This document shows, piece after piece, positions 4,856-10,565 of a stretch of DNA of 12,672 bases (within the stretch, counting starts at the first letter, position 1; each line of letters opens with the position of its first letter). A program made the translations under genes and the position numbers. The notes below the pieces were generated by a model. It was not told the origin of the DNA, ran no database searches, and saw nothing but the letters and a program-made list of their open reading frames with translations. This DNA comes from Deltaproteobacteria bacterium (GTDB lineage: Bacteria > Myxococcota_A > JAADFL01): positions 1-12,672 of the forward strand of contig JAADFL010000055.1 in the NCBI GenBank assembly GCA_013152945.1, written 5' to 3'.

Positions 4856-5740
4856 ATGTCGACTGCAGCGCTTTTTGCAAATGCGGAGGTAGAAAAGTTG
4901 CTTCAAGACAGGGACCTGCTCAAGATCAAGTCGTTACTGGACAAGCTACGTTATGAAATACGACGATTCCACCACCACACGTGGGGATACCTTCAGCTAA
5001 ACCTGCTGGGAAACAATGTCAACAGAAAGGAAATTTTCGATCATGGTTCTCACCCGGTGCTCCTCCTTCATGGATGGGTGGCAACCAGGAGGGTCATGTC
5101 ATTACTGGAAAGGAGACTGCGCCGTGACGGATACTCGGTATTCAGTGTCCACCTCGGCGGACTGTTCGATACATTCAACAGTGACGGAATCCCGAGGCTG
5201 GCTGAAGTGGTTGCGGGAAAGGTTGAAAAAATCAGGCAACGCCACGATCTGGGCAGGATATCCATAATTGGGCACTCAGAAGGCGGTCTTATTGCACGGT
5301 ACTATGTAAAGCGGTTGCGGGGGAACAGGAATGTCAGGACCCTGATAACTCTTGGCACGCCTCACAGGGGCACAATAATGGCATTTGCCGGCATCTTCAT
5401 CCTGGGCTTCTTGTCAAGAAGCATCTGGCAATTGACGCCCCTGTCCCCGTTCATTCGGGAAATGAAGAAAGGTCCATGGCCCAAAGATGTCAAGCTTGTA
5501 ACCATATTTTCCAGGGCCGACTGGATGTCGCCATACCCGAGTTGCATACTGGAAGAAAAACCCGGCGAACCGGTCAAGAATATTGAAGTGGAAAACGTGT
5601 CGCATGCCGAGCTGCTTTTCAGCAGAGCTGTGTACAATGCCGTCAAAAAAGAGCTTCCGCCTCCAAAGGAGCCTGCAGAAGCCTGGAGAGAACGAACGAT
5701 TTCATCCCCTGCGCTACAGGAAACACTGAATATCGATTGA
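4856..5740 (+). CDS. Alpha/beta hydrolase, lipase/esterase type (up to 294 aa)
   Basis: This is a serine hydrolase of the alpha/beta-fold superfamily. 'HPVLLLHGW' (66-74) gives the strand and HG oxyanion loop. 'IIGHSEGGLIARYYV' carries the nucleophile elbow with Ser141, and 'TLGTPHRGT' follows as in triacylglycerol-lipase/PGAP1-like proteins. Asp222 ('SRADWMSP') and His250 ('NVSHAELLF') fit the rest of the triad. It probably cleaves an ester or acyl chain, but the substrate cannot be read from sequence. No signal peptide is visible; the N-terminus is a charged helical stretch. The start is uncertain. The ATG at 4856 has no ribosome-binding site, while an in-frame TTG at 4898 (residue 15) has GGAGGT 7 nt upstream and would give 280 aa. 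The coordinates cover the longer option. It follows the Omp85-like gene by 49 bp and ends 11 bp before the next start, so all three are probably co-transcribed. Confidence 0.88.
   Translation: MSTAALFANAEVEKLLQDRDLLKIKSLLDKLRYEIRRFHHHTWGYLQLNLLGNNVNRKEIFDHGSHPVLLLHGWVATRRVMSLLERRLRRDGYSVFSVHLGGLFDTFNSDGIPRLAEVVAGKVEKIRQRHDLGRISIIGHSEGGLIARYYVKRLRGNRNVRTLITLGTPHRGTIMAFAGIFILGFLSRSIWQLTPLSPFIREMKKGPWPKDVKLVTIFSRADWMSPYPSCILEEKPGEPVKNIEVENVSHAELLFSRAVYNAVKKELPPPKEPAEAWRERTISSPALQETLNID
4885..4890 (+). promoter_or_regulatory. Strong Shine-Dalgarno inside the annotated hydrolase start region
   Basis: GGAGGT at 4885-4890, 7 nt before an in-frame TTG at 4898, has the same form as the site used by the gene at 7587. 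It makes 4898 a serious alternative start for the hydrolase. It could instead be chance, because the bases also encode Ala-Glu-Val. Confidence 0.45.
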
Positions 5741-5744
5741 GGAG
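5739..5744 (+). promoter_or_regulatory. Shine-Dalgarno site that sets the metalloprotease start at 5752
   Basis: GAGGAG overlaps the stop codon of the hydrolase and lies 7 nt before the ATG at 5752. This favours 5752 over the in-frame TTG at 5737 and implies translational coupling with the upstream gene. Confidence 0.7.
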
Positions 5745-5751
5745 AACCACC

Positions 5752-7500
5752 ATGAAAATGAAAAAAAAATTTGTTGCACGTGCCGTTGTTGCATTCATCC
5801 TTGCATTTATTACAGGCGCGGCATTGCCGGGCCCGGTCGAAGCCGGAAAAGGGAGGAGCAGAAATACCATCTTCCTGAATGCGATGAAGACCGAGTTGGA
5901 GAGAACAAAGAACAACCTGAAATTACCGGACGAGGGCTTTCCCCCTCCATACTTTACAGCCTACAGACTTTATGAAACCAAGCAGACAACGCTGCTTGGA
6001 AAATACGGCGCAATTTTTTCAGACCGTGATTATTGTACTCGCAGGTTCTCTGTCGAGGTACGTGTCGGTGACTATTCGTTCGACAACACAAGTGGAAGCA
6101 GCGGGATGGAGTTTACATGGCCGGGAAGTCACTACTATGCCGACACCCTTGCCCCCCTGGACGACGACTCCGGTGATGCCCTACAAAATGCTCTCTGGCT
6201 GAAGACCGACGAGAAATACAAGTCCGCACTGGTTACTTATCATAAGAAAAAAGGTAAAATAGTTTATTCAGTAAAAGACGACAAGCATGTGGACTCTTTT
6301 TCCAGAGAAAAGCCCACCACTTATTTCGGGCCGGCAAAGCATTTTCCTTTTAATAAACAAAAATGGATTCGCTTCATTCGCAAGGCTTCTTCTATTTTCA
6401 AGGATCATCCGGCGGTTTTCGACCACTCGATCAAGGTGACAGCTCAAAAAGTCTCCCGGTTCCTGGTGAATACCGAGGGAACCGAGATTGTTGATGACAA
6501 TACTTTGTACGGCATCTTCATAAGCGCCTCTGCAAGGGCCGAGGACGGCATGCTCTTGAGTTCCAATGTAACCATATACAGCCGGGAATACAATAAGCTT
6601 CCCCGTGAAAAGAAACTCATGGAAAAAACATCCGGCCTGATAAGAGAACTCGAGAACTTGAGAAAGGCTCCCGTGGCCAACCCATATACCGGCCCCGCCA
6701 TATTGGCGCCGGCCGCAACAGGAGTAATGTTTCACGAGGCCATTGGGCACCGGCTTGAGGGCCACAGGCAGGACGATGAAAAAGAGGGTAGGACTTTCAA
6801 GGGACAGGTGGGCAAGAAGATCCTGCCGGATTTCCTGTCCGTGTACGACAATCCGACCCTGCGCGAGTTCAACGGCAAAACTTTAAATGGTTTCTACAAA
6901 TACGACGACGAGGGCGTAAACGTAAAGGCTCAAAAAGTAGTACTCGTGGACCATGGGATACTTAGGAATTTCCTGATGAGCAGAAAACCTATCGAGGGTT
7001 TCAGCCATTCCAATGGACACGGACGGGCCGCACCGGGACAAGACCCGGTTTCCAGGCAAGGGATCCTCATCATCGAGGCACACAAGAGTGTTCCTTACTC
7101 CAAACTCGAAAAAATGTTGATCAAAGAAGCCGAGCGACAGGGGAAGCCCTATGGATTGCTGCTCAAAGACATTGCCGGAGGCTCGACCAACACATCTTCT
7201 TATGGTTTCCAGGCATTCAAGGGGAGGCCAAGGCTGGTTTATAGAATCTGGGTAAAAGACGGCCACAAGGAACTTGTCCGGGGCGTAGAGATGGTCGGAA
7301 CTCCGCTGTCCAGCCTAAACAAGATAATGGCTGCATCCAATGAAAGAAAAGTGTTCAACGGGTATTGCGGGGCCGAGTCCGGCTTCATTCCCGTTTCAAC
7401 CATTGCCCCCGCTATCTTGGTAAGCGAAATCGAGCTGCAAAGGACCGCCAGGGAAAAGGAACGCCCTCCCATCCTCCCAAGCCCGTGGCAAGGGAAATAA
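5752..7500 (+). CDS. Exported TldD/PmbA-family zinc metalloprotease (582 aa)
   Basis: Residues 1-31 form a signal peptide: MKMKKK, a hydrophobic stretch AVVAFILAFITG, and VEA before Gly32. The C-terminal half carries the TldD hallmark 'FHEAIGHRLEGH'. His328, Glu329 and His333 form HExxxH, and a conserved Cys539 in 'GYCGAESG' is followed by 'IPVSTIAPAILV'. In E. coli TldD two His and a late Cys bind zinc, so this copy looks catalytically intact, unlike the TldE/PmbA partner subunit. Cytosolic TldD works with TldE in a TldD/E protease that cuts unfolded peptides (microcin B17 maturation, CcdA degradation). Here there is a signal peptide and no second family member in the window, so it probably acts alone in the periplasm or at the cell surface. 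It follows the hydrolase by 11 bp. At 582 aa it is longer than E. coli TldD (about 480). The substrate is unknown. Confidence 0.9.
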   Translation: MKMKKKFVARAVVAFILAFITGAALPGPVEAGKGRSRNTIFLNAMKTELERTKNNLKLPDEGFPPPYFTAYRLYETKQTTLLGKYGAIFSDRDYCTRRFSVEVRVGDYSFDNTSGSSGMEFTWPGSHYYADTLAPLDDDSGDALQNALWLKTDEKYKSALVTYHKKKGKIVYSVKDDKHVDSFSREKPTTYFGPAKHFPFNKQKWIRFIRKASSIFKDHPAVFDHSIKVTAQKVSRFLVNTEGTEIVDDNTLYGIFISASARAEDGMLLSSNVTIYSREYNKLPREKKLMEKTSGLIRELENLRKAPVANPYTGPAILAPAATGVMFHEAIGHRLEGHRQDDEKEGRTFKGQVGKKILPDFLSVYDNPTLREFNGKTLNGFYKYDDEGVNVKAQKVVLVDHGILRNFLMSRKPIEGFSHSNGHGRAAPGQDPVSRQGILIIEAHKSVPYSKLEKMLIKEAERQGKPYGLLLKDIAGGSTNTSSYGFQAFKGRPRLVYRIWVKDGHKELVRGVEMVGTPLSSLNKIMAASNERKVFNGYCGAESGFIPVSTIAPAILVSEIELQRTAREKERPPILPSPWQGK

Positions 7501-7574: not shown

Positions 7575-7580
7575 GGAGGT
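7575..7580 (+). promoter_or_regulatory. Strong Shine-Dalgarno before a TTG start
   Basis: GGAGGT at 7575-7580 sits 6 nt upstream of the TTG at 7587. It is the only good site near the beginning of this long frame and fixes the start. Confidence 0.75.
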
Positions 7581-7586
7581 GGTTAT

Positions 7587-10565
7587 TTGATTACTGTCGA
7601 GCTGGAGGCCTTGCTTGGCCGGGACAGCACGGAAATAGATCGTTTCGGAAATCATAACCGAAAGTACCTCTTCCAACTCCAAAAATACGGTTTCGAGCTG
7701 GCTCAACTGGTCAGCCCTGCAGGCCTTAGCCTGGATGCGTTTCCGGATGATCCGGAATCCGAAGTAACACGCCTTGTAGCAAAAAGCGGAACCCGGGCCC
7801 CACAGTATCTCGGCGCATACTTCAGCATTCATTACCTTAAGCTCAATGCCGCCGCTGTCTCACGTTTCAGATTGGAATCGGCATGCGCCAAAGACAGGTA
7901 CCGGCTTTACAGGACTATCCTGGGCGGGTACGAGCGCAAACTCTCTATCCTGGTACGCGCACTGTTCCATGCTTATGCCTCGTTCTATTCCAATGGCATC
8001 AAACTGGTCCCTTACACCGTGCTCAACGTAGGTTCCCTAACAGACCACGAGGATATAGATGTTGCCCTGGTAGCTGATGCGCCGAAGAAAGCAACGGACC
8101 TGGACATGGTCGTCAGCAACCTGTCCCAGGAATTCTTTCGCAGGATCATGCCTCTTCATTTCTACCTTGCGGAACAGTTCGAGGAACGTAGATACTGGGG
8201 CAGTCTCGCCGATTACACAAAGGTACTGGATATTCATTTGAAGGATTTCGTCGTGGTCGGCCAGTTGCTTACCGCAACCAGACTTGCCGGTTCACAAAGA
8301 CTATACAAAATCATCATCGATGAAGTTCACCGTAGATATCTGTCCCCGGAAGACAATACGCAGTACAGAGAAGGATTCTTGAGAGGCACCCTTGGAGAAC
8401 TGGATGTGCTTTTGGGCCAACGGGACCTGACAGAGGACTCCTTTAATCCAAAAAGGGAAATATACAGACTAATAAAGCTTCTGGTAGCAGCGGTAAGAAC
8501 AATTTTCCACCTTAGGCAACCCGGCATCATCGTAAACCTAAAATCTCTTATAGAACTGGATCCGGCCCATGCAGTCGAGTACCGTAACTTAAGACGTGCT
8601 TTCTCGTTCAACGAGAGCTTCAGGTACCTATACAATCTGCTGGTCATACCTACAGATGAAATACAAATGGAGAACGAGAACGTGCCCGAAGCCCTTTCCG
8701 AAATCGGAATGCTGATGGGTTTCGGCAAGGATCCAAGGGGACCTCTCCAAGCCCTGGTGCTTACTTATGCCGAGCACCTGGCAAAAAGCCTGGGAGCGGG
8801 GCTTGTCCTTTCACACCTACTAAGGGATCACCTGAAGGAAATAAGCATATTCAGACGCCTGTTAGCCGATGGCTTGACGCCGCCCGGGCCAGGAGGAAAA
8901 AAAAGAGATGCAGCCCTCAACCTCCTGGAAGATGTTAAGCGCACAGAGAAAAAGATCTTTTGGGAAGAAATACCGGAGGTAATACAGGAAAATCCCCAAA
9001 CACTGGCCAGATTCGTGGACGACCTCGCAAGATTGCCCCGGATAGATCAGATAGAAGCAGTGAGGAGCTATGTTCTCCTCATGACATCCGACCTGAAAAG
9101 CCTCGTGGAATTACTGATATTCTTATCCAACCTGCCAGTGCCGGCAGGTAAGAAAAAAAGGGCCGGAATAGCCGATCTCTTCCTGGAGGCCTTCTTGGAA
9201 TGCCTGAACAGTTTTCCTCACAAGGTAAAGGATTACGGGCGACTGGTTGTTTCCGATCCAGAACTCCTGGCCAGATTTGTAAGAGCCTATTCTCCTGATA
9301 TAATTGATAGAATTTCATCAATTTTAGCATCCCAGGGTGAGTCCTGGAAAGTGGAGAGACAGATTCTATGGCACAGGACACTCCTGGTCACCGAACACGG
9401 TAAAAGCAGGCATCTCGGCAGACTACTCGACAGGGTTTTGGGCCAACGGCCTGAAGTCAAACGCCTTCTCGGCGAACCCACCAGGCTCAAGGTCTTAGCT
9501 GAAGAGGTGAGACGGGAAGCCTCTTTGGAGCAGGAATTCGGACGAAAACGTAAGCTTCTGGGAGAATCTTTCGACATCGAGATGTTACGCCTTGCCCTTG
9601 GAACTCTGCTGCTCGCAGAGAATCCTGACTGGTATAAAGACTACATGGCTGTTGTTGACGATTATGTAAATGATGTCTTGAAGACGTGCATGCTCGAGGT
9701 CTGGGAAAAGCAAATGGCTTTCACCAGAATCAGTTTTCCTGCAGGGCTTTCTATCTATGCTACCGGCGGCAATGCACGGGGAGAGGGGCTGGCTGATGAC
9801 TACGATTTTATAGCATTGTTGGACGACAGGGCTGCAGGAGAACGATCCTTTTATAATAAAACGGTTGCCAAGTTCGTGACCGCCATTGGCAGGCATGGGC
9901 TTTTGGCACACAACCGTTTTGCAGAACACGTAAACAGCTACGTAATGACCATAGGTGAACTCAGGCAACATCTCGACGCCGATACATCGGAAGGATTCAT
10001 CGACCAGTCGGAACTGGTTGATGCCAGGCTGGTGGTGGGTGATCCCTGGCTTAACGGCAGGTTGAAGAGGGAGATCTTGAGAGATCGCATTTACCTCAAG
10101 GCCAATGAATTTCTATCGGCCATGGTCAAGGAACTGAAAGATCAGGATTCTTTCTTCAGGGTTCAAAAGCCGGGCGATACGATCGATGTAAAACAAGGGC
10201 CCGGCGGTTTGCGAACGATCAACCTTGTTTTACTCATGGCCAAGGCCAAATTCGGGTTGTACGAACCGATAACTCCACTGGCTCTGGAAAAGCTCAGGGC
10301 AGCGGCTCCAAACCTCGACAAAGAAATATATGCCCTTGAAAGAGCCAGGCGCTTTATCAAGCGTGTCCGCGATGTCTACAGGCTGACCGTGGCATACTCA
10401 GATGCAGTAAGGCCCGAACACATGGACGAACTTGTTCCCTTTGTGTATGGCGCTGTCTCGAACATGTCCGGGAGAGACCTGGCCAGGGACCTGGCCGAAC
10501 ACATGGCGACCAGCCGGGATGCAGTCTGGAGAATGGCTGAACAACTTACACACGGTTCACTATAG
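7587..10565 (+). CDS. Tandem GlnD/GlnE-like nucleotidyltransferase-fold protein without HD or ACT domains (992 aa)
   Basis: The C-terminal half is clearly GlnD-like. 'GGNARGEGLADDYDFIALLDD' (about 727-747) has the GG...DxD nucleotidyltransferase signature (Asp738, Asp740). 'DVKQGPGGLR' (867-876) matches the DIK-x-x-PGGLRD segment of PII uridylyltransferase (GlnD) and glutamine-synthetase adenylyltransferase (GlnE). A helix-rich tail ('LERARRFIKRVRDVYRL') then runs to the end. An earlier copy is weaker: 'VGSLTDHEDIDVALV' (148-162) has GS and Asp156/Asp158, but with a shorter gap than usual, and its 'EYRNLRRAFSF' helix resembles the C-terminal tail. Two nucleotidyltransferase-plus-helix units recall GlnE, but the GlnD HD and ACT domains are absent. 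The middle (about 370-700) is helical, charged and unrecognised. It probably transfers a nucleotide to a protein or small molecule; the target is unknown. TTG start with GGAGGT. It lies 86 bp after the metalloprotease and its stop is 2 bp before a consensus promoter. Confidence 0.85.
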   Translation: MITVELEALLGRDSTEIDRFGNHNRKYLFQLQKYGFELAQLVSPAGLSLDAFPDDPESEVTRLVAKSGTRAPQYLGAYFSIHYLKLNAAAVSRFRLESACAKDRYRLYRTILGGYERKLSILVRALFHAYASFYSNGIKLVPYTVLNVGSLTDHEDIDVALVADAPKKATDLDMVVSNLSQEFFRRIMPLHFYLAEQFEERRYWGSLADYTKVLDIHLKDFVVVGQLLTATRLAGSQRLYKIIIDEVHRRYLSPEDNTQYREGFLRGTLGELDVLLGQRDLTEDSFNPKREIYRLIKLLVAAVRTIFHLRQPGIIVNLKSLIELDPAHAVEYRNLRRAFSFNESFRYLYNLLVIPTDEIQMENENVPEALSEIGMLMGFGKDPRGPLQALVLTYAEHLAKSLGAGLVLSHLLRDHLKEISIFRRLLADGLTPPGPGGKKRDAALNLLEDVKRTEKKIFWEEIPEVIQENPQTLARFVDDLARLPRIDQIEAVRSYVLLMTSDLKSLVELLIFLSNLPVPAGKKKRAGIADLFLEAFLECLNSFPHKVKDYGRLVVSDPELLARFVRAYSPDIIDRISSILASQGESWKVERQILWHRTLLVTEHGKSRHLGRLLDRVLGQRPEVKRLLGEPTRLKVLAEEVRREASLEQEFGRKRKLLGESFDIEMLRLALGTLLLAENPDWYKDYMAVVDDYVNDVLKTCMLEVWEKQMAFTRISFPAGLSIYATGGNARGEGLADDYDFIALLDDRAAGERSFYNKTVAKFVTAIGRHGLLAHNRFAEHVNSYVMTIGELRQHLDADTSEGFIDQSELVDARLVVGDPWLNGRLKREILRDRIYLKANEFLSAMVKELKDQDSFFRVQKPGDTIDVKQGPGGLRTINLVLLMAKAKFGLYEPITPLALEKLRAAAPNLDKEIYALERARRFIKRVRDVYRLTVAYSDAVRPEHMDELVPFVYGAVSNMSGRDLARDLAEHMATSRDAVWRMAEQLTHGSL

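Follow-up and report, generated by a model that had tools for sequence, protein, structure and literature searches.

What does a protein with two nucleotidyltransferase (NTase) modules do among genes of envelope type? The question is raised by one gene in the DNA analysed here, a stretch of 12,672 nucleotides (the window). The relatives of this protein, GlnD and GlnE, are two-headed enzymes that tag proteins of nitrogen control with nucleotides and take these tags off again.

Architecture and active sites of the tandem nucleotidyltransferase

The gene was confirmed as the open reading frame at 7587–10565 (+) encoding a 992-aa protein with two NTase modules, as an earlier note on this DNA had read it. 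The TTG start was preceded by GGAGG, full-length homologues of 950–1000 aa backed both frame and start, and catalytic residues were near-invariant. The three motifs that the note had pointed out were found at their sites, namely VGSLTDHEDID (residues 148–158), GGNARGEGLADDYD (727–740) and DVKQGPGGLR (867–876). Features are given below with their window coordinates and the evidence on which they rest.

7575–7579 (+): GGAGG ribosome-binding site, 7 nt 5' of the TTG start (sequence)
7587–10565 (+): tandem NTase gene, 992 aa (full-length homologues)
7587–8816 (+): N-terminal GlnE-type half, residues 1–410, comprising a helical lead-in, the NTase core and a PF08335-like helical domain (AlphaFold2 model, superposition on 1V4A, match to the C-half)
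8028–8060 (+): N-half catalytic motif VGSLTDHEDID, residues 148–158 (family alignment)
8172–8174 (+): E196, invariant, candidate third carboxylate of the N-half (family alignment)
8817–9518 (+): central helical spacer, residues 411–644, with no family match (profile comparison, structure comparison, Pfam)
9519–10541 (+): C-terminal GlnE/GlnD-type half, residues 645–985 (Z 32.6 to 1V4A, 30.2 to 3K7D)
9765–9806 (+): C-half catalytic motif GGNARGEGLADDYD, residues 727–740, aligned to GlnD GGYGRGELHPLSDVD (family alignment)
9924–9926 (+): E780, where 28 of 34 relatives have D; candidate for the third carboxylate in the C-half (family alignment)
10122–10373 (+): PF08335 GlnD_UR_UTase match, residues 846–929, including DVKQGPGGLR at 867–876 (Pfam)

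Across the whole protein Pfam reported only the PF08335 match (24.5 bits, cut-off 21), NCBIfam GlnD models matched residues 711–929 (E 4e-9), and phmmer against PDB sequences returned no matches. The GlnE NTase profile PF03710 did not match the window protein and reached E ≤ 1 in 3 of 35 family members (best 1e-5). A second PF08335-type helical region lies in the N-half and was detected by Pfam in several homologues (at about 293–407 in the L052 protein). The two halves (62–410 and 645–985) were homologous to each other in profile–profile comparison (E 2.8e-23); judged from sequence, this mutual match and the near-invariance of the catalytic residues among 34 relatives indicate that the two-NTase pattern is more than chance.

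In an AlphaFold2 model of the whole protein built with 34 homologues the mean pLDDT was 84.7, and the N-half modelled alone reached a pLDDT of 91.2 and a pTM of 0.90. In these predicted models both halves superposed on the domains of GlnE (E. coli b3053, the glutamine synthetase adenylyltransferase/adenylyl-removing enzyme; Z 25.9–32.6), the C-half (547–985) giving Z 32.6 over 387 residues to the N-terminal domain (1V4A) and 30.2 to the C-terminal domain (3K7D), and the N-half alone giving 28.4 over 357 residues and 25.9, respectively. The tandem fold is thus predicted with good confidence. As in GlnE, two sets of NTase and PF08335-type modules enclose a helical centre in a protein of similar length, although identity in the structural alignments was only 11–15%. 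In hhalign comparisons the C-half was nearer to GlnD than to GlnE (E 8.3e-25 vs 2e-13), as was the N-half (8e-7 vs 2e-4), with the reservation that the GlnE profile held 6 sequences and the GlnD profile 20, an imbalance that could tilt the result towards GlnD. The protein is therefore GlnE-like in architecture and GlnD-like in sequence, which bears out the description of a GlnE-shaped protein made of GlnD-like parts. With GlnD (E. coli b0167; P-II uridylyltransferase/uridylyl-removing enzyme), to which its NTase and PF08335 regions match best, the C-half has the features GG-R-E-DxD and DxK-GPGGLR in common; the window protein differs in having a second NTase module and neither HD nor ACT domains. 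HD was absent from the window protein and from the 25 commonest families among 35 members, the spacer being unmatched, and ACT domains were likewise absent, the PF08335 region being followed by the protein end. Neither Pfam nor NCBIfam reported either domain and no hidden copy was found, in agreement with what the note had claimed.

The helical centre called unrecognised from residue 370 onwards stood for about 411–644, for which Pfam gave nothing significant and for which no relatives were detectable, a difference from GlnE; the residues up to about 410 belong instead to the N-terminal GlnE-type domain. A HEAT/ARM-like solenoid was rejected for residues 420–606 (Z 6–8, the chance level for helical models), as was a likeness of the N-half to AadA (Z about 8), which reflects merely the common NTase fold and was far exceeded by GlnE once the half was modelled alone. 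DUF294 proteins contain a single NTase, mostly combined with CBS or cNMP domains; PF03445 and PF10335 (DUF294 and DUF294_C) gave weak matches in 5 and 11 of 35 family members, and neither matched the window protein. Both halves also resembled the AMPylase domain of DrrA/SidM (PDB 6YX5; Z 22.6 for the C-half and 21.4 for the N-half), which has the GlnE-type protein-AMPylating fold and differs in its single NTase domain, its eukaryotic target and a very low identity of 10–11%. DrrA/SidM provides a precedent for a GlnE-type fold acting on proteins besides glutamine synthetase (PMC12409994).

The C-half motif aligned with GlnD GGYGRGELHPLSDVD and GlnE GKLGGRELNFSSDID, and G727, R731, D738, D740, K869, G873 and R876 were present in 34/34 sequences, with D or E at position 780 in 31/34. 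In the N-half, D156 and D158 were conserved in 32/32, and H191 and E196 in 33/33, of the members with a residue there. The DxD pairs of the window protein were intact in both halves (D156/D158 and D738/D740). It deviated from the family consensus at the otherwise constant positions 732, 733, 736, 774 and 877 while keeping the acidic core. Catalytic competence of the N-half is less sure because its loop (family consensus VGTRADQDDID) is shorter than the canonical G[GS]-x9-D-x-D, and with so short a phosphate-binding loop this half could be non-catalytic. One or both halves might then be pseudo-enzymes, and the protein might act on KGOR, the 2-oxoglutarate:ferredoxin oxidoreductase encoded beside most homologues (see below), as allosteric scaffold or assembly factor. 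This would also suit the loss of the consensus residues E732/Q733, D736 and D877 from the window protein, yet no member with residues at these sites lacked either DxD pair or E196, the fast-evolving window protein included, and we regard this explanation as very unlikely.

Distribution of the family and its linkage to kor genes

A search of 57 genomes of close relatives returned the window itself as the sole match, and in the window's phylum the family was present in 5 of 377 sampled genomes, namely the window's own and four of family f38; weak matches in this survey were mostly GlnD or GlnE with a different layout. As a lone query, the window protein matched the f38 homologues over residues 55–988 with E values down to 1.3e-84, and profile A6, in which it is included, matched it along its whole length. 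Since alignments of the whole family were too variable, a C-half alignment was used to scan 84,980 species genomes, which yielded 42 loci from Zixibacteria, Eisenbacteria, Krumholzibacteriota, Latescibacterota, KSB1, Calditrichota, Cloacimonadota, Gemmatimonadota, WOR-3, Neomarinimicrobiota and the f38 Myxococcota/proteobacterial bins. Homologues spanned about ten phylum labels, mostly of uncultured organisms; one 'Chloroflexi' bin, perhaps misassigned, grouped with Zixibacteria in the tree. The window protein was the most diverged member, with a branch of 5.5 changes per site and an overall identity of ≤27%. In the open-access papers searched, no description of the family was found. The superfamily is already known, and the branch with the tandem layout, the spacer and the KGOR linkage is apparently undescribed.

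In 27 of 33 testable loci, korC, coding for the gamma subunit of the oxidoreductase, lay just upstream of the NTase gene on the same strand (in two of the 27, L076 and L086, with an extra open reading frame in between). Despite sufficient upstream sequence it was absent from L059, L060, L065, L079, L081 and the window, so adjacency to korC is a usual rather than a required feature of the family. Most korC-linked loci also carried korD-korA-korB, often with hdrABC or ndk nearby. NCBIfam named the subunits KorA, KorB, OorC/KorC and OGOR delta, i.e. the 2-oxoacid/2-oxoglutarate type, and further neighbours HdrA2, HdrB, HdrC, FolE2 and nucleoside diphosphate kinase. Overall, we consider the existence of this family and its linkage to KGOR nearly certain. 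On a quick tree, the linked/unlinked label required six changes for the six unlinked members, which is consistent with repeated loss from a kor-linked ancestor; in our best explanation the gene originally stood directly downstream of korC in the KGOR operon.

Two korC paralogues, one belonging to korDABC and one paired with the NTase gene, stood side by side in L046, L047, L050, L053, L058, L067 and L075. In Zixibacteria-type loci the NTase-linked KorC was a separate paralogue that shared only 27–32% identity with the KorC encoded in the divergent korDABC next to it, so the pairing of KorC with the NTase is kept even where a second KorC serves the enzyme. In the SYGPEARG segment of KorC, Tyr occurred in 20 of 22 readable NTase-linked proteins and in the KorC of the window genome, and Phe in 7 of 7 unlinked paralogues; this pattern weakly suggests the Tyr as one candidate modification site.

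Gene linkage does not separate a target from a regulator or a co-expressed partner. The substrate might therefore be another linked electron-transfer protein (HdrB/HdrC or HdrA) or a small molecule, with the KGOR linkage reflecting co-regulation only. Many loci had hdrB/hdrC convergent downstream, and in Eisenbacteria the tandem NTase of L081 (7937–11245) carries a C-terminal HdrC-like 4Fe-4S domain in one fused protein. We nevertheless think this explanation unlikely, because it is korC that stays constant beside the gene: it also accompanies the NTase at those KSB1, Latescibacterota, WOR-3 and Myxococcota loci that showed no adjacent downstream hdrBC pair.

Other features recurred around the homologues. 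The KSB1-type operon (L061, L063, L066, L076 and L077) continued into folE2 and ndk, with ackA too in 4 of 5, and L078 likewise held folE2 and ndk. In loci of WOR-3 and Cloacimonadota, the gene immediately upstream of the tandem NTase (L086, 7245–7985; L059, 1517–2260) encodes a protein of 246–247 aa. The two proteins look similar, have the motif IIIGA...WDxDLLF, match nothing in Pfam and may be a third, small NTase.

The window locus and its genome

The neighbours of the window gene were as the earlier note had described them: an Omp85 barrel, an alpha/beta hydrolase, a TldD-like protein, a TPR protein and a LysM protein. The envelope role proposed from them was not supported, since the conserved neighbourhood of the family consists of korDABC, hdrABC and ndk rather than envelope genes; no envelope gene family recurred around homologues, and in the data examined envelope-type neighbours were confined to the window's genome. 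The TldD/PmbA-like protein (5737–7500, +; PF19289, E 2.4e-28) has an N-terminus that resembles a signal peptide; TldD/PmbA proteins are usually cytoplasmic. Elsewhere in the window we observed a CARDB/DUF7507-like repeat protein that is open at the contig end (3–1940, –) and a small protein that resembles a lipoprotein and has no significant family match (2127–2786, –).

The same genome encodes its own KGOR on contig 164, in the order sucC-sucD-korD-korA-korB-korC-ndk (L092:7379–12760, –), with the NTase gene absent. Its KorA and KorB shared 56% and 60% identity with their counterparts from NTase-linked operons, and its KorC was 62% identical to NTase-linked KorC vs 39–40% to the unlinked paralogue. 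Only 36 bp separate korC from ndk, the slot that the NTase gene fills in L082 of Gemmatimonadota (korDABC-NTase-ndk). Because the genome's own korDABC-ndk lacks the gene in this slot, the window copy looks like a relocated family member and a lineage-specific exception. Its function may have shifted, as it is unlinked to kor and sits on a very long branch. In the window lineage alone, the copy might have left the kor operon and then taken on an envelope function, which would fit a long-branched gene between TldD-like and TPR/LysM genes. This context was seen in one genome only, and the family-wide linkage to KGOR, the retained catalytic residues and the closely related KGOR in the same genome all argue against such a recruitment, which we consider rather improbable.

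An ordinary, diverged GlnE or GlnD in nitrogen control, acting on glutamine synthetase or P-II, would account for the fold and motifs, and 2-oxoglutarate is also a P-II ligand. The window genome, a 94% complete draft, yielded no P-II, GlnD or GlnE (the control search for P-II was positive in 13 of 14 genomes), and it gave 0 PF03710 matches and no other PF08335 match above the cut-off; P-II is hence an unlikely substrate. Among 31 family genomes, all drafts, P-II exceeded the cut-off in only 5, and three of these five (those of L047, L052 and L053) carried further GlnD/GlnE-type proteins besides the family member; for L047 and L052, GlnD and GlnE were encoded near P-II on a single contig. The family is therefore not simply a stand-in for GlnD or GlnE. 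Homologues located mainly beside glnA, glnB or amtB, which the note had set against its own reading, were not seen at any locus: the family is linked to korC rather than to glnA or P-II. An ordinary GlnE was thus rejected on the absence of PF03710 and the kor linkage, and an ordinary GlnD on the lack of HD and ACT domains and of P-II. We disfavour a role in nitrogen control and regard it as distinctly unlikely.

Proposed function and its meaning

We read these proteins as a probably bifunctional protein nucleotidyltransferase family of GlnE architecture, separate from both GlnD and GlnE. GlnE AMPylates with its C-terminal half and removes the AMP by phosphorolysis with its N-terminal half, the central part being regulatory (PMC12409994). 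By analogy, one half of the family protein would attach a nucleotide and the other would remove it by phosphorolysis, so that no HD domain would be needed. The earlier note had concluded that there is no removing activity of the HD type; the absence of HD stood, whereas removal as such is still conceivable, because a half corresponding to the AMP-removing N-half of GlnE is present (PMC12409994).

We infer the chemistry of nucleotide transfer, its direction, the nucleotide, its reversibility and its target from these likenesses and from the gene neighbourhood. The most economical choice of target would be the KGOR beside which the family evolved, KorC in particular. Our main reading, that the family reversibly nucleotidylylates KGOR with KorC or a KorC-like partner as the favoured target, has in our estimate a probability of about 0.5. 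Modification would gate the oxidative decarboxylation of 2-oxoglutarate and the reduction of ferredoxin in the citric acid cycle, and the diverged, relocated window copy would presumably act in trans on the KGOR of its own genome. More tentatively still, about ten phyla, most of them uncultured, may possess in this family a second nucleotidylylation switch, independent of P-II, in which reversible tagging of KGOR via KorC controls ferredoxin reduction and the citric acid cycle.

Glutamine synthetase is the classic example of a metabolic enzyme under reversible nucleotidylylation, and P-II is the signal protein that goes with it. If our reading is true, this mode of control would reach across the same junction metabolite to its carbon side, and a protein of roughly 1000 aa, apparently undescribed and present in many phyla, would gain a function. 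The proximity to kor genes across about ten phyla suggests that the citric acid cycle is under a switch of this kind, based on nucleotide tags and not yet described.
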